Source: Pirellulales bacterium (GTDB lineage Bacteria > Planctomycetota > Planctomycetia > Pirellulales > PALSA-1355). Taken from it: 64,000 bases of DNA. Both the position numbers and the translations under genes were made by a program. The stretch is taken from contig JALHMI010000009.1 of assembly GCA_022844125.1 (NCBI GenBank), forward strand, positions 1 through 64,000, given 5' to 3'. Numbering within the stretch: position 1 is the stretch's first letter; each line of letters opens with the position of its first letter. This document shows positions 49,786-63,538 of this stretch, one piece after another. The notes beneath the pieces are model-generated. The model did not search any database and was not told where the DNA came from. It saw only the letters and a program-made list of their open reading frames with translations.

Positions 49786-51153
49786 CTATTGCTGAGCTGC
49801 TGGCGACTGCGCCGGGGGCTGATCGTCCGGCTGCGGCATGCGAATCAGGCTCATCTGGTGCGTGCTGCCGTCCGCGTTAAGCACCAGGACCGGAGTTACA
49901 TCCTTGGTCAGGTTCGCGATCCCAGCTTCGTAGACCGGTGTCTTGTCCGTCCCGATGGTCCAGGCGGTTCGCTGCGATTGCTTGTCGACCGAGCCGGAGA
50001 CAGGCTCCATGTCATCGGTCTTGGTGTTGTGATAGTTACCGCGAATGATGCCTTGGGGATCGACCGCGAGTTGGAAGATGTCGTCCGACTTAGTCTGGCC
50101 GTCTTCAACGATCGCAAACACGCCGAGCGGCAACCACTTCGCGTCTGCGGCCGGCTCTGCGGTCTGACCAGCGTCGGCAATCGTCGATGCTTGGTTTGCA
50201 TATTCCTGCGAGCTGCCGGTACTGTCACCATTGACGTACACCGAGTCACCTTGAACCACGACGTTGCCGCCGTAGTCGTATGCGGCGGGGACAGCGGCCA
50301 GGCCAAGCCCACGTGCCAGCCCGGCATAGCCCGGGTGTGTATAGAGCGAGGTCGAGACCACGTGCGTGGGTTGCCAGGCATTCGGGTAGGCGGCAAAGGC
50401 GGCCACGTTGTAATTCTGGTAGCCGACAGCCCCGCCGCGGAAGGCCGTGCCTTGAGCGGCCATGTTGTCCACGCTCGCGTAACGGGTTCCGGTTCGCCCT
50501 GCGGCATAAGCTCCGGCGTCGTCGAAGTTGCCGGCGCCGGGTCGTCCCACACCACCGACGCCGACACCCGGCTGACCCGCGCCGCCGACGCCTTGACCAG
50601 GTCGCCCCACACCACCGACGCCGACGCCCGGTTGACCCGCGCCGCCGACGCCTTGAACAGGTCGCCCCACACCACCGACGCCAACACCCGGCTGACCCGC
50701 GCCGGTGCCTTGGCCGGGGCGTCCAGCACCACCGGCACCGGCTCCTGGTCTGCCGGCTCCAGCATCTTCACCTGGGCGTCCGACACCGCCTGCAGCTTGG
50801 CCTGGGCGTCCGGCACCGCCTGCACCTTCGCCGGGGCGACCAGAGCTACCGGCTTCGCCGCCTGGCCTGCCGACATTTCCACGGCCTGCGCCGTGAGCTC
50901 CTATCGAGCCCTCTCCTCCACCGGCCGATCGTCCAGATGAGAGGCCTCCTCCGAATCCGCCACCGCCTTGGCGTTCTCCGCCGCCACGTTGGCTACCATA
51001 CTCGCCACTGCGCTCACCGCCACCGCCACGCTGTCCACCCTCGCCACGGGCACCGCCACTACCGCTACGGCCGCCACCGCGCGCGAAGACGACAGACTCG
51101 GGCAGCAATAGCGTGAGCACCACGAAGAGAGTGGCAAGGTACCTAGGACGCAT
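49786..51153 (-). CDS. Secreted Gly/Arg-rich repeat protein
   Basis: 455 aa. Signal peptide (YLATLFVVLTLLLPESVVFA), then ~190 residues of RGGG and GRPGxG repeats, including three copies of a 20-residue unit (GAGQPGVGVGGVGRP..). The second half is a normal globular domain (GYQNYNVAAFAAYPNAWQP, LGLAAVPAAYDYGGNVVVQGDSVYVNG, PLGVFAIVEDGQTKSDDIFQLAVDPQGIIRG). Collagen-like Gly-Pro tracts suggest an extended surface or matrix structure. The C-terminal domain is found in other planctomycete proteins, role unknown. Confidence 0.85.
   Translation of the reverse strand: MRPRYLATLFVVLTLLLPESVVFARGGGRSGSGGARGEGGQRGGGGERSGEYGSQRGGGERQGGGGFGGGLSSGRSAGGGEGSIGAHGAGRGNVGRPGGEAGSSGRPGEGAGGAGRPGQAAGGVGRPGEDAGAGRPGAGAGGAGRPGQGTGAGQPGVGVGGVGRPVQGVGGAGQPGVGVGGVGRPGQGVGGAGQPGVGVGGVGRPGAGNFDDAGAYAAGRTGTRYASVDNMAAQGTAFRGGAVGYQNYNVAAFAAYPNAWQPTHVVSTSLYTHPGYAGLARGLGLAAVPAAYDYGGNVVVQGDSVYVNGDSTGSSQEYANQASTIADAGQTAEPAADAKWLPLGVFAIVEDGQTKSDDIFQLAVDPQGIIRGNYHNTKTDDMEPVSGSVDKQSQRTAWTIGTDKTPVYEAGIANLTKDVTPVLVLNADGSTHQMSLIRMPQPDDQPPAQSPAAQQ
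50541..50703 (-). repeat. 60-bp minisatellite in the Gly-rich gene
   Basis: About 2.7 copies of a 60-base unit (period exactly 60: 50541, 50601, 50661) differing at only a few positions. Each encodes 20 residues of the Gly-rich tract. In-frame copy number could vary between strains. Confidence 0.9.
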
Positions 51154-52200: not shown

Positions 52201-52508
52201 AGTACTTGGACCCTCGAGAAGTGGGGCGAGTTAGTGCAGTTGCAGTCGGATGACCTCCGACCAAGTTCAAGATCTGTCAGTGCGCGCGATGGGCATCCTC
52301 AAGGCGAGCGCGCAAGTATGGCACGCGGACTGGCTCGTACAGGAAAGTGGTCTTCTTGCCGGTGCGAAATCGCACGTATTCGGTGAAATCGCGGCCAAAA
52401 TGAAGATGCTTGCCAAAGTGTATCGTCGGAACCACGATGCATATGGACACGATGCCGCCGAGGGGCGGGCGATCTTGAAATGCGATTTCATCATCGGTAG
52501 CCGCGTCG
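52201..52508. other. Intergenic or weakly coding region
   Basis: 308 bases between two minus-strand genes. A plus-strand frame (from 52250) and a minus-strand frame (52277-52522) are both open with reasonable composition, so at most one is real. The minus-strand one is listed separately at low confidence. Confidence 0.4.
52277..52450 (-). CDS. Possible small protein or gene remnant
   Basis: A minus-strand frame is open from 52522 to a stop at 52277-52279. It has no ATG; a GTG at 52450 would give 57 aa (SICIVVPTIHFGKHLHFG, then FTEYVRFRTGKKTTFLYEP). The codons favour GC-ending forms and the sequence looks protein-like. It could be a small gene or the C-terminus of a decayed one. No family recognised. 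Confidence 0.25.
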   Translation of the reverse strand: MSICIVVPTIHFGKHLHFGRDFTEYVRFRTGKKTTFLYEPVRVPYLRARLEDAHRAH

Positions 52509-52757
52509 CTACAGGTAATCCTTCACTGCCACTCGCTCGCCGCCGAGCTCGACGATGTCGTCCGGCGAGAGCTTTTTCCGCCGGCGGGTTTCCACCAGGC
52601 CGTTGACCTTCACTTCGCCGCCTTGAATCAGCAGCTTGGCCTGCCCGCCGGTGCTCACCAGGCCGCACAGCTTCAGGAACTGGTCTAGGCACAGCGGCGG
52701 TGCGTTGTCGATCGGTGAATGTTCGGACGGCGGGTGCGATGGTTCGTCGGTGGCCAT
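52509..52757 (-). CDS. Small S4-domain RNA-binding protein
   Basis: 82 aa. After a Pro/Ser/Glu N-terminus comes the S4 motif: PLCLDQFLKLCGLVSTGGQAKLLIQGGEVKVNGLVETRRRKKLSPDDIVELGG. This matches YbcJ/YaaA-type single S4 proteins, which bind structured RNA, probably rRNA. The ATG at 52757 is preferred to an upstream GTG-type start at 52775 because the latter falls inside the U-tract of a strong terminator. Only 16 bases separate that U-tract from the start codon. Confidence 0.85.
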   Translation of the reverse strand: MATDEPSHPPSEHSPIDNAPPLCLDQFLKLCGLVSTGGQAKLLIQGGEVKVNGLVETRRRKKLSPDDIVELGGERVAVKDYL

Positions 52758-52773
52758 GGTTCGCCAGGATACC

Positions 52774-52815
52774 AAAAAAGATGGCAGCGCTCGCCATCGG
52801 TTGGCGAGCGCTGCC
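52774..52815 (-). terminator. Strong intrinsic terminator of the copper-monooxygenase unit
   Basis: GGCAGCGCTCGCCA (52783-52796) and TGGCGAGCGCTGCC (52802-52815) form a perfect 14-bp stem with a 5-nt loop. On the minus strand it is followed by AT, C and six Us (52779-52774). It lies about 60 bases after the stop of the gene at 52877 and immediately before the S4 gene. Confidence 0.88.
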
Positions 52816-52876
52816 GCGAAAACATGCCTGGGCCACGGGATGCGTGACTTCGTTCTAATTTTTTGTCCGGCAATGG

Positions 52877-54691
52877 CTACTCCGCGCCGCCAGTCTTCGT
52901 CTCGCTTGGGTCGAGGTCCGTCCGCTTTTTGATTGTCGAGTAGAAGCCGAACATCATCTCTTCGAACGTCTGCTCACCCCAGTTCACTTCCCTGTTCGGG
53001 TCGGGGTTTCCCGGGTTGTCGGCCGAGTTGTCGTAGAACGCCGTGCAGATCATCCGGGCGCCCTTGGGAATCACACGCGGCTCTTTGAGCATGTACCAGA
53101 GCTGCCAGTTGAAGTCGTAGCGGGGCACATCCAGCAGCACTTCGGTCGTGCCGTCCGGATTCTGCAACTCGTACTTGAACGACTTGCCGCGGACGTGCAT
53201 GTGGGGGTTCATGCCCAGCAGCAGCGTGTCCTTGAGGAACAGCTTCCGCGCGATCACCTTGTGGTTCGGATCGTTCGGTGGGATCTCGAGCTGCATCTGT
53301 CCACAGGCTCCGCCCATCACCTCGTGGGTCACGGTCTTCGGATCGGCGTAAACGAAGCCGACATAGCTGCGGTCCTTCGTGGCCGTTCCGTTCGGCGTGT
53401 AGTGGTTCTGGAACACGAGCACCGAGCCGGCCTTGGCGCGAATGGCCGTGCCCGTGGGGAACCGGCGCGGCGTCATGCCCGGGGCATAAGCCATCTGCGG
53501 AGCGCCGAAGGGTTGTCCGCCCGGCTCCTGGATGAACACGATCACGTGATGCACGACCTTGGGATCGCCGGCCTTGACTTCCGCCTGCTGGATCCACTTG
53601 TCTTCCTTCCAGCCGGGATCGACTGTGTAATACTGATAGTCGACGACCCCTTCAGCCGGAATCTCGAACTCCTTTTCGCTCTGATAGAAGACGTCGTCGG
53701 GCGTCGTGATGCCCCAGCCTTCGGCATATGTCAGCGGCTCGGGAAGCTGCTTCGGATCTCCCTCGGGGCAACCATTTGCCACCCAGGCGTCAACGGTCGC
53801 CAGCTCTTCCTCGGTAAGCGAGGGGTTGTTCTTGAACTGGTCGTGCTCCTTGGCGGCGAACCAGGGGGGCATCCGCTGCTCGTGCACGACTTCCTGGATC
53901 ATTTCGGCCCAGCCGACCACTTCGTCGTACTCGGTCAGCGCGAAAGGCGCAAGCTGCCCTTCGCGGTGGCACTCGACGCAGCGGTCCCGCATGATCCGGG
54001 CAATCTGATTGGAATACGTCACGTCGCCCGTCGGTTCGGATCGATGCACGCGGCCGATCAAGCAGCCGAGGGCTTCCGTTTCAGGAACGCTCACTTCCTT
54101 GCCGGCCAGGACTTCCTCCACCGCCACAGCCAGGTCTTTTCGCACAGCCTCGGCCTTCTGATAGCCGATGCCGTACTGATCGTCGACCCGGCCCGTGTAG
54201 CGAATCACGCGATTGCCGTCGAGGACGAACATCTCGGGGGTGCGCTCGGCGCCAAAGGCGTCCGCAATCTTGTTGCCCGGATCCTTCAGCACGGGGAACG
54301 GCACGTTGTGCTTCTTGGCGTGGGTGTTCACCTCAGTGATCGAATCCTGCTGGTTCGAATTGATCGCCAGGAAGCCGACTCCCTGCGTTTCGAGCTGCGC
54401 CGCCAGCTGCGAGAGCCGCGGCATATACAGGTTGGCGAGCGGGCACTCGGTGCCGAGGAACGCTACGACGATCGCCTTCTTGTCTTTCAGGTCGTCCAGC
54501 GAGCGCTCGGTGCCGTAGGAATCACTCAGCGTAAAGTTTTCGATCTTTCGCCCGATTCGAGATCCCTTTGAATCCTTTGCGGCGTCCGGGGTCGCGGCCG
54601 CGGCCAACGACACGCCAACACTGAACGTCAGGCCAGCGATGGCCAGAGGCCCGAACCATCGGGTTGCAAACTGATGCAGGAGCGGGGTCAT
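52877..54691 (-). CDS. Peroxiredoxin-like/cytochrome c/copper type II monooxygenase fusion (A)
   Basis: 604 aa, signal peptide at the start. Residues ~50-195: AhpC/Prx-like fold with a single GTEC83PLA cysteine. Residues ~215-310: haem site C238-V-E-C241-H242. Residues ~340-575: PHM-like copper domains with H381/H382 (VVHHV), H430 (QNHYTPNG), H497/H499 (PHMHVRG) and M547 (GARMICT), the same ligand order as the CuH and CuM sites of peptidylglycine monooxygenase. It would be periplasmic, perhaps passing electrons from haem to copper to hydroxylate or oxidise a small substrate. Paralog of the adjacent gene; both share layout along the whole length. Confidence 0.88.
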   Translation of the reverse strand: MTPLLHQFATRWFGPLAIAGLTFSVGVSLAAAATPDAAKDSKGSRIGRKIENFTLSDSYGTERSLDDLKDKKAIVVAFLGTECPLANLYMPRLSQLAAQLETQGVGFLAINSNQQDSITEVNTHAKKHNVPFPVLKDPGNKIADAFGAERTPEMFVLDGNRVIRYTGRVDDQYGIGYQKAEAVRKDLAVAVEEVLAGKEVSVPETEALGCLIGRVHRSEPTGDVTYSNQIARIMRDRCVECHREGQLAPFALTEYDEVVGWAEMIQEVVHEQRMPPWFAAKEHDQFKNNPSLTEEELATVDAWVANGCPEGDPKQLPEPLTYAEGWGITTPDDVFYQSEKEFEIPAEGVVDYQYYTVDPGWKEDKWIQQAEVKAGDPKVVHHVIVFIQEPGGQPFGAPQMAYAPGMTPRRFPTGTAIRAKAGSVLVFQNHYTPNGTATKDRSYVGFVYADPKTVTHEVMGGACGQMQLEIPPNDPNHKVIARKLFLKDTLLLGMNPHMHVRGKSFKYELQNPDGTTEVLLDVPRYDFNWQLWYMLKEPRVIPKGARMICTAFYDNSADNPGNPDPNREVNWGEQTFEEMMFGFYSTIKKRTDLDPSETKTGGAE

Positions 54692-54796
54692 CGCACAAAC
54701 CTCCCTAAAGGTTTCTTGACCGAGCGGTTGCCGTCTAGTGGTTTTCGCCGCTCGTGAGTTTACTGGGTGTACCTGTCGAATGCACACGTAAGAGCG

Positions 54797-56635
54797 TCAC
54801 GGTTTCTCGGTGGGTGCCGCGGGTTTGTCGCCGGCGGCCAGCTTGCCGGTCAGGTCCTGATCTGCCAGGCAGATCTCGAACCAGCCGTAGCACATCTCCT
54901 CCCAGGTCTGCGGACCGTACCGCACTTCCTTGGTGGGATCCGGATTATTCAAGTTGTCGGCCGAGTTATCGAAATGCGCCACGCATTGCATTTTGGTTCC
55001 CTTGGGGACGCGCTTCGGCTCGTCGAAGATGTACGTGGTCTGCCAGCCGAAGTCGTACTGCGGAACGTCGAGCACGACTTCCTCGCGCCCGTCGGGGTAA
55101 ATCAGCTTGTAGTTGAAGTCCTTGCCGCGCACATGCATGTGCGGTGAAACCGACCACAGCAGCGAGTCGTGCTGGAACACGTATTCCGAGTCGACCCGAT
55201 GATTCGGGGCGCCCGCGGGAATCACGAAGTCGTGCGTGCCCGAGTGCTGGACGGCGATCTCGCGCTTCACGGTCTTGGGATCGGCAAACTTGATGCCGAC
55301 GTAGCTTTGATCGCTCTGGGCCTTGCCGTTCGGCGTGTAGTGCATCTGGAACATCAGCTTGGAGCCAGCCGGGATGAATCGCGCGGTTCCCTCGGGCAGC
55401 ACCGGCGGACGAAGACCCGGCGCGAACGACGCGAACCAATCGAGCTGCGTCTTCGGCAAGTCGGCGCTGAAGTACTTCGAAACGCCTCGGGGCGGCATCA
55501 CATACATCACGATGTGATGCACCACGGCAGGATTGCCCGGCCGAGGTTCCATCGCCGTGACCCACTTGTCTTCAGTCCAGCCTGGATCGACGATGAACAT
55601 TTTGTAGTCGACGGTGCCTTCGGCCGGCACGTCGAACGGTTTGGGCATCGAAACCACCTGGTCGGGCTCAGGCATCATCCAGCCTTTGGGGAACTCGGGC
55701 TGCGGCGGAAGCTGCGACTTGTCGCCTTCCGGCGCACCAGCCGCGACCCAGCGGGCGATCAGGTCCTTATCCTCGTCGCTCAGCCGCGCGTCGTTCGAAA
55801 ACTTGCCGTGCGCGGGATTCGCATGCCAGGGAGGCATCCGCTGTTCGGCCACCACCTCGGCGATCATCTCGGCCCAACCGGCGGCGTCTTCATAGCTGGT
55901 GAGTGAGAACGGCGCGATCTGGCCCTCGCGATGGCAGAACACACAGTTCGCGTTGAAGATCTTCGCGATGTCCTTCGAGTAGGTCACATCGCTGCTCGCG
56001 TCCGCTTGTTTCACGCGGCCGATCAGGCACCCGCTCGGCTCGGTGACGGTGACGCTGACTGCGCTGCCCGCCAGCATTTCGTCCAGCGCGATCGACAGAT
56101 CCTGCCGGCGAGCGTCCGGCAACTGGTAGCTTAAGCTCTTGCCGGCCGGCGTGGTTTGGAGGCCATACTGATCGTCGATCCGACCGACATAGCGAACCTT
56201 GCGATCGCCGTCGAGCACGAACACGATCGGCAGTCGCTCCGCGCCAAGGCGATCGGCCAGCACGTTGCCCACGTCCTTCAGAATCGGATACGTAACGCCG
56301 TGCTGCCGGGCGAACGCCCGCAGTTCCGTGACGTTGTCGTGCACATTCGAGCTGACGCCCAGAATTGTCACACCCTTGTCGGCATAGCGTTCGGCGATCG
56401 CCTCGAGCCTGGGGGCATAAAGTCTGGCCAGCGGACACTCGGTGCCCAGGAAGGCCAGTACCACTGCCTTGCTTCCGGAATAGTCCGCCAGACGGTGCTC
56501 CGCGCCATGGATATCTGTGAGCGAGATGTCGTCGACCGTCGTGCCGGGCGCTACCGGAGCCGCATTGGCCAACGCGGCCTCCAGCACCAGCGCGCAAACC
56601 GCCGCGCACATGGCCGCTTTGAAAGTAGCTCGCAT
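54797..56635 (-). CDS. Peroxiredoxin-like/cytochrome c/copper type II monooxygenase fusion (B)
   Basis: 612 aa. Signal peptide (AVCALVLEAALANA). Same three-part layout as the downstream copy: Prx-like half with C67 in GTECPLA, haem site C231-x-x-C234-H235, and copper ligands H373/H374, H432, H499/H501 and M549. The two proteins differ most after the haem domain and at the C-terminus. The start MRATFKAAM was preferred over one near 56716 that begins upstream of the signal. It lies 77 bases after the TetR gene and 105 bases before copy A, so the three are probably one transcription unit. Confidence 0.88.
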   Translation of the reverse strand: MRATFKAAMCAAVCALVLEAALANAAPVAPGTTVDDISLTDIHGAEHRLADYSGSKAVVLAFLGTECPLARLYAPRLEAIAERYADKGVTILGVSSNVHDNVTELRAFARQHGVTYPILKDVGNVLADRLGAERLPIVFVLDGDRKVRYVGRIDDQYGLQTTPAGKSLSYQLPDARRQDLSIALDEMLAGSAVSVTVTEPSGCLIGRVKQADASSDVTYSKDIAKIFNANCVFCHREGQIAPFSLTSYEDAAGWAEMIAEVVAEQRMPPWHANPAHGKFSNDARLSDEDKDLIARWVAAGAPEGDKSQLPPQPEFPKGWMMPEPDQVVSMPKPFDVPAEGTVDYKMFIVDPGWTEDKWVTAMEPRPGNPAVVHHIVMYVMPPRGVSKYFSADLPKTQLDWFASFAPGLRPPVLPEGTARFIPAGSKLMFQMHYTPNGKAQSDQSYVGIKFADPKTVKREIAVQHSGTHDFVIPAGAPNHRVDSEYVFQHDSLLWSVSPHMHVRGKDFNYKLIYPDGREEVVLDVPQYDFGWQTTYIFDEPKRVPKGTKMQCVAHFDNSADNLNNPDPTKEVRYGPQTWEEMCYGWFEICLADQDLTGKLAAGDKPAAPTEKP

Positions 56636-56712
56636 CGTCGTAACTCCTGGCTTGGCGGTGGGGGGACGATCGTGGCGAAGCAGGTACTTACTCAAAAGAA
56701 AAACTGTGAAGC

Positions 56713-57432
56713 TCAAACGCGTGGAAAAAGTCCGGCTAGTTGCTCGTGCAGTGCCGCCGGGTCGTAATGTCGGGCGATGGCCTCATCCGTCAGTCCCACG
56801 GCCCGCAGCGAGAATAGCACGGCCTGATCGGCCAGCTCGCGCGGCGTGCCGCGATAAGCGAACGCCGGCCGCTCGGGCAAATGGCTCAGCCGCAGCGCCA
56901 TGCCAAGCTGCTGGACGAAACGGAAACGAACCGCCGGCTCGACGTCGAGCGGCGCGATGTCGCCCGCAGCGGCCGCGGCGAGGTAGCTCGCGGTGACATA
57001 GTCCATCCAACTGGCGGCGGTGTCGGTCAAAATCGTGCGGGCGTGTGCACCATCGGCCAGCAGACTTTGTAACACGAGCCGCGCGGCGCCTTGTTCTTGG
57101 TCCTGTCGCCCCGGAAAGCCAAACAGCGTGAACTCAATCGTGGCGTAGGTCAGCAGCACGAACGACTTCGTCCCGGGTTCAAGCGTAGCGAATCGCGCGA
57201 TGGTGAAGCTGGAAAACTCGCGAGCGGTCTTCAGCGCCTCGTCATAGAGGGCCTGCTTGCTGGGGAAGTGTTTGTAGAGCAGTGCTTCGGAAACGCCGGC
57301 CGCGTCGGCAATGTCGCGAATCGACACCCCGTGCAATCCGCCTTGCGCGATAATCGGAGCGGCCGCGCGCAAGATGTCCGCCTTGCGTTCGTCGGCCGAC
57401 ATGCGGCGCGAAGGTTTGGATCCAGAAGCCAT
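56713..57432 (-). CDS. TetR family regulator
   Basis: 239 aa. HTH: RKADILRAAAPIIAQGGLHGVSIRDIADAAGVSEALLYKHFPSKQALYDEAL; the rest is the TetR_C ligand domain with SFVLLTYATIEFTLFGFPG. An internal Met at residue 11 is an alternative start. A 24-bp palindrome 19 bases upstream is its likely operator, so it probably represses itself and the two fusion genes that follow. Confidence 0.9.
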   Translation of the reverse strand: MASGSKPSRRMSADERKADILRAAAPIIAQGGLHGVSIRDIADAAGVSEALLYKHFPSKQALYDEALKTAREFSSFTIARFATLEPGTKSFVLLTYATIEFTLFGFPGRQDQEQGAARLVLQSLLADGAHARTILTDTAASWMDYVTASYLAAAAAGDIAPLDVEPAVRFRFVQQLGMALRLSHLPERPAFAYRGTPRELADQAVLFSLRAVGLTDEAIARHYDPAALHEQLAGLFPRV

Positions 57433-57450
57433 GAAAGCCGCCGAGAAGTT

Positions 57451-57474
57451 CGGTAAGTTAACGTTTACTTACCG
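57451..57474. promoter_or_regulatory. 24-bp palindromic operator of the TetR gene
   Basis: Arms CGGTAAGT (57451-57458) and ACTTACCG (57467-57474) enclose TAACGTTT; only one symmetric base pair in the 24 fails. Size, symmetry and place (19 bases before the TetR start) are typical of TetR/AcrR operators. Binding is inferred. Confidence 0.75.
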
Positions 57475-57564
57475 CGGCATTATGCCAGCCTGCCCTCGCG
57501 GGGTCAAGCTTTCTGCCCCGCCGACTGGCCAGCCCGATGGATGCCGCTGGAACTCGCAGAACGG

Positions 57565-57612
57565 CCGGTCTGTTACGGCACGACGATCCCGGTCTGTTAC
57601 GGCACGACGATC
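57565..57612. repeat. 24-bp tandem duplication across a stop codon
   Basis: Two identical adjacent 24-base units (57565-57588 and 57589-57612). The right unit holds the last codons IVVP and the stop of the methyltransferase-DsrE gene (minus strand); the left unit repeats them just after the stop. Confidence 0.9.
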
Positions 57613-58799
57613 GTGGTGTAACCGTCAGCCTGCTTGTTCATCACCGTCGTCAGGGCCGAGGTCGAGATGGGAATCTCCGCTGCGATGTCCGCATCCGCAT
57701 AGCCGTGATTCGCCATCGCCTGCCCGCAGACCGAAACTTCCACGCCCGCGGCCTGCAGCGCCCGGATCAGCGGCAAGTTCGGGTTCTTCTCCGGCCCGAA
57801 CTTCGTCTGGTAGGCTGCGTCGCCCAGCACCGTGCCGGTCGCTTCGCCGTGCAGCACGATCGCAATCGTGATGTCAGACCCCTTGAGGCCCGCCGCCCCA
57901 TAAAGATTCAACAGCCGCGCCACCCGCTCGAGCGACTTGTTAAGCTCTTCTGGCTTTCCGCCGAGCGTGGCATCGATCACGACTCTCGCGCCGGCCCGGG
58001 GCGGCTCGATCGTTCCCGAGCGCGGCGCGACTCCGCCGTAGCCCGCGATGATTGGAAACACGCGCTGCGTCCCCGATGCCTTCGAGTCCGTTGCCGGCTT
58101 TATGTCGGCCTTCTCAAACACAACGAAGTAGTTTTCTTTCAAGAGATCGGCGTTCTCGCTGACCTTGCGAAATCCGGCCGCGATGATCTCCGACTCGAAC
58201 ACGTGCTGGCCGGCGCGCACGTGATCGAGCACCCAGTCGGTGCTGCGCCCGGGCTCGCGGCGAAAATCGATCAGCACCACGCGTCCACCCGGCTTCAGGG
58301 CCCTGTGCAGCGAGGTCATCGTCTTGTGCGGAAACTCGAAGTGATGGTACGTATCGCAAATGAACGCCAGGTCGACCGACGCCGGGGGCAGGCCCGTCGA
58401 GTCGACGCTCGCGAGCACGGTCTCGACGTTTTTCAGCCCCACCTCACGCGCCGACTTCTCGATGTGATCGAGAAAGTTCTGGGCAATGTCGACCGCCAGG
58501 ACCTTGCCCTCGGGCCCAACCGCTTCGGCAAACAGCCGCGTGAACAACCCCGTGCCCGCGCCGATGTCGGCCACGGCCATGCCGGGTTTGATCTCGCAGG
58601 CGGCGACGATCTCTTTGCGGCGCGAGTAAACCTCGCGACTTTCGACCTCAAATCGCTCGGTGAATTCTTTCGCGTCCGGGTTGCGGAAGGCGTCGTTGAT
58701 GCCTGGCTTGACGCTGGTTTCCTGGGCCATCGTCGTTGCCGCAGCGAAAAAGAAACCTAGTGTGGCGAAAGCCACCCGGAGAAAGGTGCGAAGTGTCAT
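57597..58799 (-). CDS. Exported SAM methyltransferase fused to a DsrE-like domain
   Basis: 400 aa. Signal peptide-like N-terminus (LRVAFATLGFFFAAATTMAQ). Residues ~60-235: class I methyltransferase with VADIGAGTGLFTRLFAEAVG, VLAVDIAQNFLDHIE, FICDTYHHFEFPHKTM and KPGGRVVLIDF. Residues ~250-400: DsrE/YchN-type domain (RVVIDATLGGKPEELNKSLERVARLLNLYG, ITIAIVLHG, VEVSVC358GQAMANHGY); the Cys is where DsrE sulfurtransferases carry persulfide. It follows SQR by 60 bases on the same strand. SAM is not known outside the cytoplasm, so the signal is puzzling. Confidence 0.85.
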   Translation of the reverse strand: MTLRTFLRVAFATLGFFFAAATTMAQETSVKPGINDAFRNPDAKEFTERFEVESREVYSRRKEIVAACEIKPGMAVADIGAGTGLFTRLFAEAVGPEGKVLAVDIAQNFLDHIEKSAREVGLKNVETVLASVDSTGLPPASVDLAFICDTYHHFEFPHKTMTSLHRALKPGGRVVLIDFRREPGRSTDWVLDHVRAGQHVFESEIIAAGFRKVSENADLLKENYFVVFEKADIKPATDSKASGTQRVFPIIAGYGGVAPRSGTIEPPRAGARVVIDATLGGKPEELNKSLERVARLLNLYGAAGLKGSDITIAIVLHGEATGTVLGDAAYQTKFGPEKNPNLPLIRALQAAGVEVSVCGQAMANHGYADADIAAEIPISTSALTTVMNKQADGYTTIVVP

Positions 58800-58859
58800 G
58801 CGAGGTCGCCTGTCTGGGATTGGGAGCAGGTTGAACGAGGTACCTGATTATCAGCGAGG

Positions 58860-60053
58860 TCAGGCTCGCCCCTTGAGCATTCCGTGCCAATACAACAGCG
58901 GCAGCAAATAGCGCTTCACCAGCCACATGCTCCACCGCTCGCGCGACTGATCGATCGGAAACGTCTCTTGCGGTTGCTTGTCGTAGTCGAACTCGGCCAT
59001 GACCAGTTTACCGTAGCCGGTCACCAGCGGACACGAAGTATATCCGTCGTAAGTCGCGTCGGGCACCTGGCCCGCGATCGCGGCGCGCAGGTTTTTCACC
59101 AGCACGGGCGCTTGCTTACGAATCGCGGCCCCGGTCTTCGAAGTGGGGAGGTTGCTGCAGTCTCCGAGGGCAAACACATTCGCATATCGCCTGTGACGCA
59201 GCGTCTGCCGATCGACGTCGATCCAGCCTTGCTCGTCGGCCAGAGGACTTGCGGCCAGGAACGTCGGCGGTCCCATCGGCGGCGTCACGTGCAACAGGTC
59301 ATACGGCAGGGTGATGCGTTCGCCCGATTCCAGGCTCTTGAACACGGCTTCGTGCTTTTCGGGGAGGATCTCGACCAGTTCGTGCTGAAAGCGGCAGTCG
59401 ATCGCCTTCCGTGCGATCACTTTCTCGAGCGTTTTGCGGTATCGCTCGACTGCAAAGATGTTCGGCAAGGCCGACATGTAAATCACGTTCGCCTTCTCGC
59501 GTACGCCAGCCTTGCGAAAATGCTCGTCCGCTAGGTACATGATTTTCTGCGGCGCTCCGCCGCATTTCACGGCGCCCGAGGGGTTGGTGAAGATCGCGTT
59601 GCCCCCTTTGAATTCGCGAATCGCCTGCCAGGTGAAGTCGACCGTGCCGAACGAATAGTTGCTGCACACGCCGCCCTTGCCGAGCGACTCGCGCAGCCCG
59701 GGGATCTTGTCCCAGAAGATCTGCAAGCCGGCCGCGACGATCAGCCAGTCGTAGGTGATCGTCTTTCCGTCACGGGTGCGAATCGTGTTTTCGGCGGGCA
59801 GAAACACGGCCGCCGCATCGCGGATCCACTGCACGCCGCGCGGCATCACCGCTGCCTCGCTCCGCTCGGTTATCTGCTTGGGCGCGACACCGGCTCCGAC
59901 CAGCGTCCACAGTGGCTGGTAGTAGTGCTTGTCCGACGGCTCGAGCACCGCGATGTCGAGTCGCTTGCCCCAAAGCCTCGCCAGCCGAGCCGCAACGGTA
60001 ATGCCGGCCGTTCCTCCACCAACGATCACAACCTGGTGATGAATCGCTTCCAT
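58860..60053 (-). CDS. sqr: Sulfide:quinone oxidoreductase (human SQRDL type)
   Basis: 397 aa. FAD-binding VVIVGGGTAGITVAARLAR and a second nucleotide motif VFALGDCSNLPTSKTGAAIRKQ. The redox cysteines are C164 (AVKCGGAPQKIMYL) and C341 (YTSCPLVTGYGKLVMAEFDY); both segments are very close to those around Cys201 and Cys379 of human SQRDL, so this is a type II SQR. It oxidises sulfide, puts electrons into quinone and transfers sulfane sulfur to an acceptor thiol. The C-terminal LVKRYLLPLLYWHGMLKG gives membrane contact. Part of the sulfide operon. Confidence 0.93.
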   Translation of the reverse strand: MEAIHHQVVIVGGGTAGITVAARLARLWGKRLDIAVLEPSDKHYYQPLWTLVGAGVAPKQITERSEAAVMPRGVQWIRDAAAVFLPAENTIRTRDGKTITYDWLIVAAGLQIFWDKIPGLRESLGKGGVCSNYSFGTVDFTWQAIREFKGGNAIFTNPSGAVKCGGAPQKIMYLADEHFRKAGVREKANVIYMSALPNIFAVERYRKTLEKVIARKAIDCRFQHELVEILPEKHEAVFKSLESGERITLPYDLLHVTPPMGPPTFLAASPLADEQGWIDVDRQTLRHRRYANVFALGDCSNLPTSKTGAAIRKQAPVLVKNLRAAIAGQVPDATYDGYTSCPLVTGYGKLVMAEFDYDKQPQETFPIDQSRERWSMWLVKRYLLPLLYWHGMLKGRA

Positions 60054-60086
60054 GATGCTGATCTTGCCTGTCGAGAAGTTGAATGC

Positions 60087-60920
60087 TCAGAAGTAAACGT
60101 TTCGCAGGATCACGTACACGGCCACCGCAACGATCGCCACCGCGAACACGCGGGCCAGCATCGGCCCGGACAGCCGTTTCCCCAGTTGCTGGCCGGCGAA
60201 GAGGCCCGCCACGCCGCCGACGATGAACAGCAGCGTCATCGTCGGATCGATCTCCCGCCCAGCCGTGAGATGCGCGGTCACGCCCGAGACACTCACCAGC
60301 GCGATCACCATCAACGAGGTGCCGACGGCATGGTGCAACGACATTCCGCTAAACAACACCAGCGCCGGCACGATCACGAAGCCGCCACCGACGCCAAATA
60401 GTCCCGAGAGCACGCCCGTGGCCAGCCCGACGCAGACCAGCAGCAGTCCGCAGCGCGAGGTGAGCACCAGCCGCCCGGCCGCGTCGCGCTGACATGTCGC
60501 CGGACTGACATCCCCATTTGAGCAGGTTGCCGCATCGGTCTTTTGGCGAGTCGTGCCGCGCCACATCCGTACCGCGACATACAACATCAGTCCGGCAAAC
60601 GCGAGTAGCAGGACGGAGGCCGGGAGTTGTCCCGAGATCCAACTGCCGATCGGCGCGCCAAGCATACCGGCCATCGCGAAGATCAGTCCGGTTTGCAGTT
60701 CCACTTCGCCCAATCGCCAGCGATGCAGAAAGCCGGCAAACGACGTCGCTCCCACCGCGGCCAACGAGATGCCTACCGCCTGCGCGGCTGGCACACGGAG
60801 CCCATAAACCAGCAGCGGCACGGCAAAGATCGCGCCTCCGCCGCCAGTCAGTCCCAGCGAGAGCCCGACAATCCCGCCGCAGGCAATGGCGAGCATCAAG
60901 ATGGAGGAGGGATCGCTCAT
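60087..60920 (-). CDS. TauE/SafE-family sulfite exporter-like permease
   Basis: 277 aa from MSDPSSILML; an ATG 15 bases upstream is possible. About eight TM helices in two halves, each opening with the family signature: GLSLGLTGGGGAIFAVPLLVYG and GVLSGLFGVGGGFVIVPALVL. TauE/SafE proteins export sulfite, sulfoacetate or related C-S anions. Between SQR (33 bases downstream) and the dioxygenase gene (101 bases upstream), it would remove the sulfite produced. The middle loop is long and contains two cysteines. Confidence 0.9.
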   Translation of the reverse strand: MSDPSSILMLAIACGGIVGLSLGLTGGGGAIFAVPLLVYGLRVPAAQAVGISLAAVGATSFAGFLHRWRLGEVELQTGLIFAMAGMLGAPIGSWISGQLPASVLLLAFAGLMLYVAVRMWRGTTRQKTDAATCSNGDVSPATCQRDAAGRLVLTSRCGLLLVCVGLATGVLSGLFGVGGGFVIVPALVLFSGMSLHHAVGTSLMVIALVSVSGVTAHLTAGREIDPTMTLLFIVGGVAGLFAGQQLGKRLSGPMLARVFAVAIVAVAVYVILRNVYF

Positions 60921-61021
60921 GTTGGCTAACTGCAATGAAAGCTTCCGCCGGAAACCGGCGAGCCGTCGTGCTCTTGGGGAACATGACGACTGCCGCTCTC
61001 CAGGGACGCGCCGTTATTCTT

Positions 61022-62443
61022 TCATACTGTGGCCCGCGCGGGCCCTTGCACGACGCTCAGGCCGGCCTTCTTCCAGGCTTCGATGCCGCCCTGCATGTTG
61101 ATCACGTCGAAGCCCGCTCGCTGCAGCACGCTGGCCGCGATGGCCGAGCGTCCGCCGCTACGGCACTGCACGACCAGCGGTCGGTCGCGCTCGAGCGTGT
61201 GGAGCGATCGCAAGAGCGTACCTAGAAAGCAATGTTCGGTGCCATCGATATGCTCTTCCGCAAACTCCGTGGCTGAGCGAACGTCCACCAGCTGCACGCG
61301 ATCGCTCTCGATCGCTTCGCGCAACTCGGCCGGGGTCTCGGAACCGTAGGTCTCTTTGCGTAGCCGTAGTCCCCGCACTTCGTCGGCGTCGAAATATCCC
61401 GCCACGTTGTCGATGCCGATCGAACGCAGGCCGCGCAGGTTCGCGTCCAGCGCGGCGGTCGTCGTCAGCAGGTACAGCGGCTGGGTGTAGTCCACGAAGA
61501 AGCCGGCCCACTGCACGAGCGCTCCGCTCGGCACGTTGACGCTTCCGGCCACGTGCCCCGCGGCGAAGTCCCCGCTGCTCGTGGTGTCGATCACCATCTG
61601 CCGCTGGGCCAGGTCGGTGACTTGCCGCGGATCGAGGGCCGCGACGGTTGGCAACTCGCGCACCAAGGCCGGACCTTCCTTGTTCACTCGTTTCATGACG
61701 GCGAAGTAAAACGGCGTTTCCGGCTGATCCGCCAGGATATAGTTGACGAACTCCTGCTCGTCGTCGTATTGCAGAGCCGGATTGAATAGTTTTTCGTAGC
61801 CGACCGTGGAAGAGGGGATCGCTCCCAGGCCTTTGCCGCAGGCGCTCCCCGCTCCGTGAGCCGGCCAGATCTGCAAGTGATCGGGCAGTTCGCGGAACTT
61901 TCGCATCGAGTGAAACAGTTGGCGAGCGCCTTTCTCTGCACTCCCCACGAGGCCCGCCGCCGTTTCCAGCAGATCGGGCCGACCGATTGAACCGACGAAT
62001 ACGAAGTCGCCGGTGAAGATGCCCATCGGCTCGGTGGCGCCGCCCCCCTCGTCGGTCAGCATGAACGAGATGTGTTCGGGCGTGTGTCCCGGCGTATGCA
62101 CCACTTCGAGCTTGACGTTTCCCACGCGAAACGTGTCGCCATCGTGCACGAGCTGAACGTCATGCTGGTCGGCGAACAGGTACTTCCATTCGGCAGGGCC
62201 TTCGTCTGAGAGATACAGCTTCGCCCCGACCCGATCCGCCAGTTCGCGCGAGCCGGACACAAAGTCGGCATGGATGTGAGTTTCCGCCGCACCGACGATC
62301 CGCAGTCCCTCGACCGAGGCGGCTTCCAGATAGGGCTCAATGTTGCGGCCCGGGTCGATTACCAGCGCCTCGCCGCTTCGCTGGCAGCCAACCAGGTAGG
62401 ACGCATGGGCGAGCGATTTGTCGTAGAAGTATTTCAGTAGCAT
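61022..62443 (-). CDS. Persulfide dioxygenase-rhodanese fusion
   Basis: 473 aa. N-terminal metallo-beta-lactamase fold of the ETHE1/PDO type: GAAETHIHADFVSGSRELA, VHTPGHTPEHISF and GDFVFVGSIGRPDL; the Phe after HAD fits mono-iron enzymes of this group. Two rhodanese domains follow: the first (SGDFAAGHVAGSVNVPSG, LLTTTAALD) has lost its cysteine, the second keeps it in VVQCRSGGRSAIAA. It would oxidise glutathione- or other persulfides to sulfite and make thiosulfate with the rhodanese. Soluble, no signal. Central gene of the sulfide operon. Confidence 0.9.
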   Translation of the reverse strand: MLLKYFYDKSLAHASYLVGCQRSGEALVIDPGRNIEPYLEAASVEGLRIVGAAETHIHADFVSGSRELADRVGAKLYLSDEGPAEWKYLFADQHDVQLVHDGDTFRVGNVKLEVVHTPGHTPEHISFMLTDEGGGATEPMGIFTGDFVFVGSIGRPDLLETAAGLVGSAEKGARQLFHSMRKFRELPDHLQIWPAHGAGSACGKGLGAIPSSTVGYEKLFNPALQYDDEQEFVNYILADQPETPFYFAVMKRVNKEGPALVRELPTVAALDPRQVTDLAQRQMVIDTTSSGDFAAGHVAGSVNVPSGALVQWAGFFVDYTQPLYLLTTTAALDANLRGLRSIGIDNVAGYFDADEVRGLRLRKETYGSETPAELREAIESDRVQLVDVRSATEFAEEHIDGTEHCFLGTLLRSLHTLERDRPLVVQCRSGGRSAIAASVLQRAGFDVINMQGGIEAWKKAGLSVVQGPARATV

Positions 62444-62499
62444 CGCAGCACCTGTCAGTGGGGTTGAATCAATTCATTGAATGGATCGCTGGCCAGCCA

Positions 62500-63078
62500 T
62501 CAGCCGCAGCACTTGGGAGCTCCGCCACTCGGAGAGTTCGCCGCGCTGCAAGTTTTCGGAGCCTGGTTCCACGGCATCCGCGCGAGCATCAGGGCCATGC
62601 CGCAGGTGTCGGTCACGCCGGCAAACACGAGGCCGCCACCGACCGCCGCGGCCCCCAAGGCAAAATAGGGATGGACCAGGACGGCCAGGACGCCGAACGT
62701 AGCCACCAGTGTTCCGGCTGCAATGCGAACCTGTCGCTCGAGCGAGATCGACTTCTGTCCTCGCTTCACCGGCAGACCGGCCTGCTCCCAGGCCTGCGTA
62801 CCACCTTCCACATTGACGACGTTGGCCACGCCGGCGGCCGTGAGCTTCTGGCAAGCCTGGCTGGCCCGACTTCCCGAGCGGCAAATGACGTACAGCGGTT
62901 CGCTGACGTGCCGGCCAGTGAATTGCGCGGGTTCCAACTCAGTGAGCGGCAGGTTTCGGGCGAAGCTGACGTGAACCTCGCCAAATTCGGCCGGCGTGCG
63001 GACGTCGATCAACTCGACCGGTGTGCCGGCGGTCAGTTTGTCGTGCAACTGCTGGGGCGAAATCGTGGTGACGGACAT
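62500..63078 (-). CDS. YgaP-like membrane rhodanese
   Basis: 192 aa. Rhodanese domain with active cysteine in VICRSGSRASQACQKL, then a DUF2892 two-TM region almost identical in plan to Escherichia YgaP: ERQVRIAAGTLVATFGVLAVLVHPYFALGAAAVGGGLVFAGVTDTCG (quoted here only as two TM helices ending in GVTDTCG), then MALMLARMPWN and a Cys-rich tail (TCSAAN, KCCG). It moves sulfane sulfur, possibly cyanide or thiosulfate sulfur, at the membrane. GAGGAGA precedes the start at 63078. First structural gene of the sulfide unit. Confidence 0.9.
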   Translation of the reverse strand: MSVTTISPQQLHDKLTAGTPVELIDVRTPAEFGEVHVSFARNLPLTELEPAQFTGRHVSEPLYVICRSGSRASQACQKLTAAGVANVVNVEGGTQAWEQAGLPVKRGQKSISLERQVRIAAGTLVATFGVLAVLVHPYFALGAAAVGGGLVFAGVTDTCGMALMLARMPWNQAPKTCSAANSPSGGAPKCCG

Positions 63079-63170
63079 GACTAGGTTCTCCTCGTTGGGA
63101 AATCCGTTCTGCGTTTGAGCACGGGCGACCTTGCCCGCACGTTGTGTGCTTTCCTTAAAACGTCGAAATG

Positions 63171-63184
63171 TCGGAATTGTTCTA
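63171..63184. promoter_or_regulatory. Degenerate copy of the ArsR-gene operator
   Basis: TCGGAATTGTTCTA matches 10 of 14 positions of the perfect palindrome at 63571, in the gap before the YgaP-like gene. It is a candidate second binding site for the regulator. Confidence 0.4.
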
Positions 63185-63220
63185 TGTGTGTGTTCAAAAA
63201 AATTTGGCGGCGAGAAGCTG

Positions 63221-63538
63221 CTACCGAGCGCCGGCGACGCCGAAGCGATCCTCGACGCAGCGGAGGATGTTTTTCAGGTGCGGTTCCACGACGCGGTAGT
63301 ACACCTTGCGGCCTTCCTTCTCGCTGGCCAGAAAGCCGCAGCGCTGCATCAGCCGCAAATGCTCCGACGCCATCGCGCTCGGCAGATCGCAGGCCTCGGC
63401 CAGCTCACCGACCGCGAAGTCGCCTTGCAACAGCATCTGCACCATCCGCAGGCGATGCGGATGCGCCAGCGTCTTGAGGCACTCGGCTGCCTGCCCGAGG
63501 GCCTCCAGATCGGTGAGTTTTAGCTTCGTCGTGGCCAT
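63221..63538 (-). CDS. ArsR-family regulator, BigR/SqrR-like
   Basis: 105 aa. HTH: LKTLAHPHRLRMVQMLLQGDFAVGELAEACDLPSAMASEHLRLMQRCGFLASEKEGRKVYYRV. Cysteines are C20, C50, C67 and C94; C50 (in the ELAEAC segment before the recognition helix) and C94 (near the C-terminus) are placed like the two sensing cysteines of BigR/SqrR, which form a tetrasulfide bridge with sulfane sulfur and leave DNA. First gene upstream of the sulfide unit, same strand. It would derepress the unit when sulfide or persulfide accumulates. Confidence 0.87.
   Translation of the reverse strand: MATTKLKLTDLEALGQAAECLKTLAHPHRLRMVQMLLQGDFAVGELAEACDLPSAMASEHLRLMQRCGFLASEKEGRKVYYRVVEPHLKNILRCVEDRFGVAGAR

Follow-up and report, generated by a model that had tools for sequence, protein, structure and literature searches.

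The window, the whole stretch of 64,000 nucleotides analysed here, carries a TetR gene (TetR1) followed by two genes for predicted copper enzymes, in an arrangement that reads as an ordinary TetR autorepression module, most likely controlling both copper fusions as a single operon. The fusion cargo is unusual, and so is the placing of two TetR lineages before such fusions. On the minus strand the order is TTGACC, 17 bases, CATAAT, 4 bases, the operator, 18 bases, TetR1, 77 bases, fusion 1, 105 bases, fusion 2, 61 bases, and a 14-bp hairpin followed by ATCTTTTTTG. Coordinates are given in Table 1.

Table 1. Features of the TetR1 locus, by position in the window (L009 is the locus of the TetR1 ortholog).
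Feature	Position	Strand	Basis or remark
-35-like hexamer TTGACC	57502..57507	-	promoter scan, TTGACC-17-CATAAT, 10/12 matches
-10-like hexamer CATAAT	57479..57484	-	promoter scan; 4 bases before operator
Predicted operator O1, 24 bp	57451..57474	.	GTAAGT-N8-ACTTAC core, over expected transcription start
TetR regulator TetR1, 239 aa	56713..57432	-	Pfam TetR_N 5.9e-17; model matches TetR structures
Possible worn second operator, half-site TTGAGTAAGTACC	56676..56695	-	after TetR stop; matrix 4.5, fourth best in window
Fusion 1: redoxin, CxxCH, PHM/DBH-like domain, 612 aa	54797..56635	-	start codon inferred
Fusion 2: same make-up by homology, 604 aa	52877..54691	-	start codon inferred; ortholog of L009 fusion
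Terminator, 14-bp stem then ATCTTTTTTG	52783..52815	-	61 bases after fusion 2; terminator scan

The inverted repeat before TetR1, CGGTAAGTAAACGTTAACTTACCG, has 12-nt arms without a spacer, 11 of whose 12 pairs match, and reads CGGTAAGTTAACGTTTACTTACCG on the plus strand; its core follows the plan GTAAGT-N8-ACTTAC. An earlier note on this DNA had described a 24-bp repeat with a single mismatched pair, 19 bases before a TetR gene that leads into two fusions. The mismatched pair is present and both fusions lie downstream on the same strand, and the gap between the repeat and the TetR1 ATG (57432) is 18 bases (57433-57450), not 19. Nowhere else in the window is there a spacerless 24-bp palindrome with fewer than two mismatches. 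A palindrome of this kind somewhere in 64 kb is unremarkable, because 60 first-order Markov shuffles of the window yield 0.42 comparable ones on average (maximum 3); by our own arithmetic, the chance of one within 100 bases before one given gene is about 5e-4. The palindrome is predicted to be a TetR-type operator at the gene's own promoter. Taken alone it is a weak argument, and what makes the case for this putative operator strong is its conservation with the TetR family. The sole clear ortholog of TetR1 found is 71% identical and belongs to a Planctomycetota MAG (record QQVE01000039.1; L009 and G002:C33 are this one record and were counted once). There, GTGAGTAAACGCTAACTTAC stands before TetR and one fusion behind it.

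The comparison set consisted of 16 fusion-less relatives (L010, L111-L114, L141-L151), in each of which the 100 bases before TetR were searched for the best match to GTAAGT-N8-ACTTAC. At least 9 of the 12 core positions matched in 12 of the 16, and for each of these no more than 3.6% of 500 shuffles scored as high; the best upstream site in L144-L147 had 7/12 matches, no good site by the core measure. A matrix was built from the sites of the 12 relatives, with the window and L009 excluded and L144-L147 omitted (<9/12). The window operator scored 28.4 and that of L009 26.3, within the range of the training sites (20.5-32.6, or 18.6-31.8 when each was left out), and the next best place in the window scored 5.7. 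Since the 6-8-6 core had been chosen after viewing the window and six relatives, this matrix test is strong but not blind. The O1-type operator, as predicted here, is a trait of the TetR family. Upstream of TetR in L114, L148 and L150, the half-sites are also readable with a 4-base spacer instead of 8, as if overlapping registers might be used.

The palindrome lies between the end of the methyltransferase-DsrE gene (57597) and TetR1, and its RNA folds with its flanks at -13.9 kcal/mol (z -3.0), as would suit a terminator of that upstream gene. However, no T run follows it, it is absent from the terminator scan output and, without the left flank, it folds no better than shuffles (z -0.01); the terminator reading was therefore rejected. 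The ortholog, moreover, keeps the core despite different upstream genes. Likewise, the palindrome tracks the TetR family and not the upstream gene. A role as terminator or as another protein's site is very improbable.

The promoter scan of 52500-58900 returned 2 sites against a shuffle mean of 0.9 and is therefore weak by itself. Position at the operator speaks for the promoter-like site before TetR1, as does a similar layout in the ortholog, where TTGATG-N17-CACAAT, read by eye and below the scan threshold, precedes the operator. A repressor bound at O1 would block the promoter-like TTGACC-N17-CATAAT. At the other end, fusion 2 is followed by a hairpin with a folding energy of -31.9 kcal/mol (z -6.2), the longest-stemmed of 6 terminator-like sites in the terminator scan, for which the shuffle mean was 6.0. 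With a strong terminator behind fusion 2 and no clear promoter behind TetR1, the predicted reading is that TetR1, fusion 1 and fusion 2 likely form one repressed operon. The terminator scan found no terminator-like site between the upstream gene and the TetR1 promoter, so read-through from the upstream gene is possible.

TetR1 might instead repress itself alone, with the fusions transcribed from their own promoter (in 56636-56712 or before fusion 2) and constitutive or otherwise controlled. The 77-base gap is long for one operon and is T-rich near TetR1; the promoter scan also lists a weak promoter-like site at 54972-54944, which could be a promoter of fusion 2 alone. An ancestral separate control point is further suggested by a second site after TetR, with a matrix score above 10, in 10 of the 16 fusion-less relatives (nine at offsets 13-40, one at 130); downstream genes there may therefore have own-promoter control. 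Against this, the gap holds no promoter-like site at the scan threshold, the terminator scan shows no terminator-like site of note behind TetR1 on the same strand, and just 44 bases separate TetR and fusion in the ortholog. We consider separate control of the fusions unlikely. The candidate second site in the window, TTGAGTAAGTACCTGCTTCG at offset 19, matches the O2 of the relatives in position, and its first 13 bases are identical to the first 13 of the L141 site, itself weak (6.3). Its score is reached by three of 63,981 window places besides O1, the candidate included, and the chance of such a site in the TetR1-fusion 1 gap is about 0.003 by our own arithmetic. It may be the remnant of a second operator, of which no more than half a site is left. 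The ortholog has no second operator after TetR. In L144-L146, a second operator-like site just behind the TetR stop overlaps the beginning of the outer-membrane efflux gene that follows, and in L147 a perfect core site occurs only 3' of TetR, before a PQQ_2 protein, with none upstream of TetR.

We think it probable that TetR1 is the autorepressor of a TetR1-fusion 1-fusion 2 transcript and is released by an effector. A TetR dimer bound to the palindrome, which covers the start of the gene's own promoter, would keep the transcript low. A small intracellular effector would release TetR from the operator, and the fusions would then be made until transcription ends at the hairpin after fusion 2. 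The TetR fold and HTH, the operator, its overlap with a promoter-like site, the family conservation, the gene order, the terminator and the fusion domains are read from the sequence; binding, repression rather than activation, one transcript across the 77-base gap and release by a ligand are what we infer.

Many TetR proteins act on other genes, and TetR1 could control a wider gene set elsewhere with the fusions as passengers. The search for the palindrome that had been proposed to define a regulon turned up no other good copy in the genome: allowing up to 3 mismatches, the 20-base core matched O1 alone. A core-only search with 1 mismatch matched 20 places, fewer than its reversed control (25), and the other 19 had matrix scores of at most 10.1. 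The 14 fixed bases with 2 mismatches gave 8 places against 18 for the control; within 3-kb stretches around the other 7, the matrix maximum was 12.9, reached at one place and below the minimum of the left-out true sites (18.6). TetR and fusion 2, moreover, are still paired at ~70% protein identity. With fewer core copies than in the reversed control and low matrix scores, a wider TetR1 regulon was rejected, and the chance that the fusions are passengers seems to us slight.

TetR1 matches Pfam PF00440 (TetR_N) with an E-value of 5.9e-17 and 61.6 bits against a cut-off of 24. Its model (pLDDT 78.6) has the all-helical TetR fold, with Foldseek probability 1.00 to TetR entries and a VIA Z of up to 15.6 against TetR structures, and the best 50 matches in each listing are TetR proteins throughout. 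None of the 18 NCBIfam subfamilies listed (RutR, BetI, AcrR, KstR etc.) reaches its cut-off (best 47.7 bits vs 250). Assigning a ligand class from structure was abandoned: the model's listed matches mix GusR, KstR2, AmtR, NalD, IcaR, AvaR1, SmeT and others, and no ligand class stands out among them at tied scores. The earlier note had read the locus as an inducible response to a hydrophobic substrate. That interpretation agrees with a predicted TetR-type operator at the TetR gene's own promoter, with same-strand fusions behind the gene and with a strong terminator after the second of them; the hydrophobic substrate is unsupported beyond plausibility, because the TetR1 model matches TetR proteins of unlike ligands at tied scores. 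The pump-linked relatives described below hint that the effector may be of a xenobiotic type, and it need not be the substrate of the downstream enzymes.

Both fusions match AhpC/TSA by Pfam and contain CxxCH in their translations; fusion 1 also has weak haem and cytochrome matches below the Pfam cut-offs. The model of fusion 1, built with 19 sequences (pLDDT 79.3), matched PHM (E 3.2e-14) and DBH (E 4.6e-13) with probability 1.00 in Foldseek, as well as redoxin proteins. As modelled, the C-terminal half of fusion 1 adopts the fold common to PHM and dopamine beta-hydroxylase, with CxxCH between the redoxin and PHM-like domains. All 19 fusions compared share H373, H374, H432, H499, H501 and M581, and these HH, H, HxH and M positions may correspond to the copper ligands of PHM (three His, then two His and one Met). 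The fusions differ from PHM and DBH in that this domain stands behind a redoxin domain and CxxCH, and identity to the PHM/DBH chains listed is 14-19%. Pfam gave no Cu monooxygenase family for either fusion at E-values up to 0.001, and a profile search of solved structures matched the redoxin part alone (57 of 57 matches). The literature within reach of our search, outside which most subscription papers lie, yielded nothing on redoxin/PHM-like fusions.

Such fusions are found in 111 of 146 relatives at E 1e-60. Many fusion relatives (L083-L093, L116-L118) are ~760-800 aa long and carry ~170 extra C-terminal residues that are absent from the window's two. Fusion 2 has the L009 fusion as its sister (69-70% identity by BLASTP, SH-aLRT 100), and fusion 1 groups with other paralogs, apart from this pair; TetR-fusion 2 is therefore the older pair. 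It has been kept in two genera at ~70% protein identity. Fusion 1 would either have joined it in one lineage or have disappeared from the other. As partners of TetR1 the two fusions thus part company, fusion 2 being the conserved partner and fusion 1 a separate paralog.

A TetR profile run over 37 fusion loci (L081-L110 and L116-L122, L081 being the window) matched 6: the window, and L087, L088, L090, L091 and L116, which belong to another lineage, TetR2. This lineage gave 20 matches in 14 of 146 relatives, including one in the window's own genome (G000:C5:286863-287543; L116, L152; the other loci are L153-L171). In 18 of the 20 loci the gene directly behind TetR2, on the same strand, is a fusion; L163, one of the 18, has only the first part of the fusion in its stretch, and L160 and L171 show none. 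As in the window, TetR2 directly precedes a copper fusion and its palindromic site often follows a promoter-like TTGAC. Unlike in the window, the putative operator is AGAATNAGAATTCTNGTTC, and TetR2 has no significant similarity to TetR1 (E 0.065). Sites with at least 14/17 matches to AGAATNAGAATTCTNGTTC, a consensus read from five loci later included in its own count, precede TetR2 in 12 of 20 loci; five of the remaining 8, which fall below this measure, show the related AGAATCAGATTCT by eye. In two loci (L116:1079-1609, L153:2403-2891), a gene matching the first third of the fusion profile, the redoxin part, lies upstream of TetR2 on the same strand. The window's own genome has 13 fusions at E 1e-100, two behind TetR1, one behind TetR2 (C5), and 10 with no TetR match within the fetched stretches. 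The TetR searches around fusions were confined to these stretches (~1.5 kb flanks for L081-L110), and the TetR absences are therefore local. Two TetR lineages before one enzyme type suggest that some fusions answer to specific chemicals. The TetR switch offers a handle on these fusions of no known role, and TetR effectors can be screened in vitro.

TetR1 was found in 6 of 146 relatives at 1e-15. Profile searches at 1e-25 recovered it from 8 genomes in a phylum sample of 392 and from 10 in an order sample of 396, and each of these counts includes the own genome; G001 and G003, of the same family, lack it in the search of the relatives' genomes. Across 7 aligned TetRs the recognition-helix region is largely invariant. 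Export genes follow TetR in 11 of the 16 fusion-less relatives (Pfam; same strand, within ~0.6 kb), namely OEP (L010, L144, L146), HlyD (L112, L113, L114, L148, L151), FtsX (L141, L142) and an ABC ATPase (L149), with further HlyD, MacB and RND genes downstream in several. L145 was outside the Pfam scan and is outside this count; its downstream start resembles that of L146 by eye. Non-export neighbours are an unknown gene in L143, a PQQ_2 protein in L147, and an unclear gene followed by DoxX_2 in L150; in L111, no ORF of 130 aa stands on the same strand within 1.3 kb, and an RND gene lies ~2 kb upstream. These pump-linked relatives (tripartite/ABC export) have the operator core in common with the window and TetRs 33-39% identical to TetR1 where aligned. 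They differ in the export genes behind TetR, whereas the window has copper fusions directly downstream, no export genes and at best half a second operator. Among TetR1 relatives, copper fusions follow TetR only in the window and one sister genome (L009).

In a TetR tree of 30 rows, the window and L009 form a clade with support 100/100. Deeper down, the branches are poorly separated, with L010, L151, L147 and some outgroup rows in one common fork, so that the tree supports neither a single group of all 18 TetR1 proteins nor a place for the fusion-linked pair within the pump-linked ones; the argument for a take-over from pump regulation is drawn from neighbours and operators only. We tentatively suggest, as a doubtful possibility, that the window TetR was taken over from an export-pump regulator and that two unrelated TetR lineages became attached to the expanded fusions in planctomycetes. 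If so, copper-dependent oxidation outside the cytoplasm would now answer to a chemical signal that once switched on export. The fusions would be monooxygenases with an inducible role in detoxification or catabolism, and the TetR effectors would lead directly to their substrates.

RamR, which acts in multidrug-efflux control, offers a comparison of operator plans, not of proteins. The RamR operator of Klebsiella and Salmonella is atgagtg-N6-cactcat (PMC4310594); as in the window, a TetR-type repressor gene lies beside a promoter-overlapping inverted repeat of 6-8-6 plan, ATGAGT-N8-ACTCAT. RamR differs in being another protein that represses romA-ramA, whereas the window TetR precedes predicted copper enzymes.

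The genes upstream of TetR1 on the same strand (57597-63538) form a sulfide-oxidation-like cluster of an ArsR/SmtB regulator, a rhodanese, an MBL-rhodanese, TauE, a sulfide:quinone-reductase-like protein and the methyltransferase-DsrE fusion. Across the 3' end of the methyltransferase-DsrE gene (~57565-57611), a unit of ~24 bases, CCGGTCTGTTACGGCACGACGAT, stands in tandem. On the other side, at 49786-51153 of the minus strand, a 455-aa ORF without a Pfam match encodes a glycine-rich, repetitive protein.
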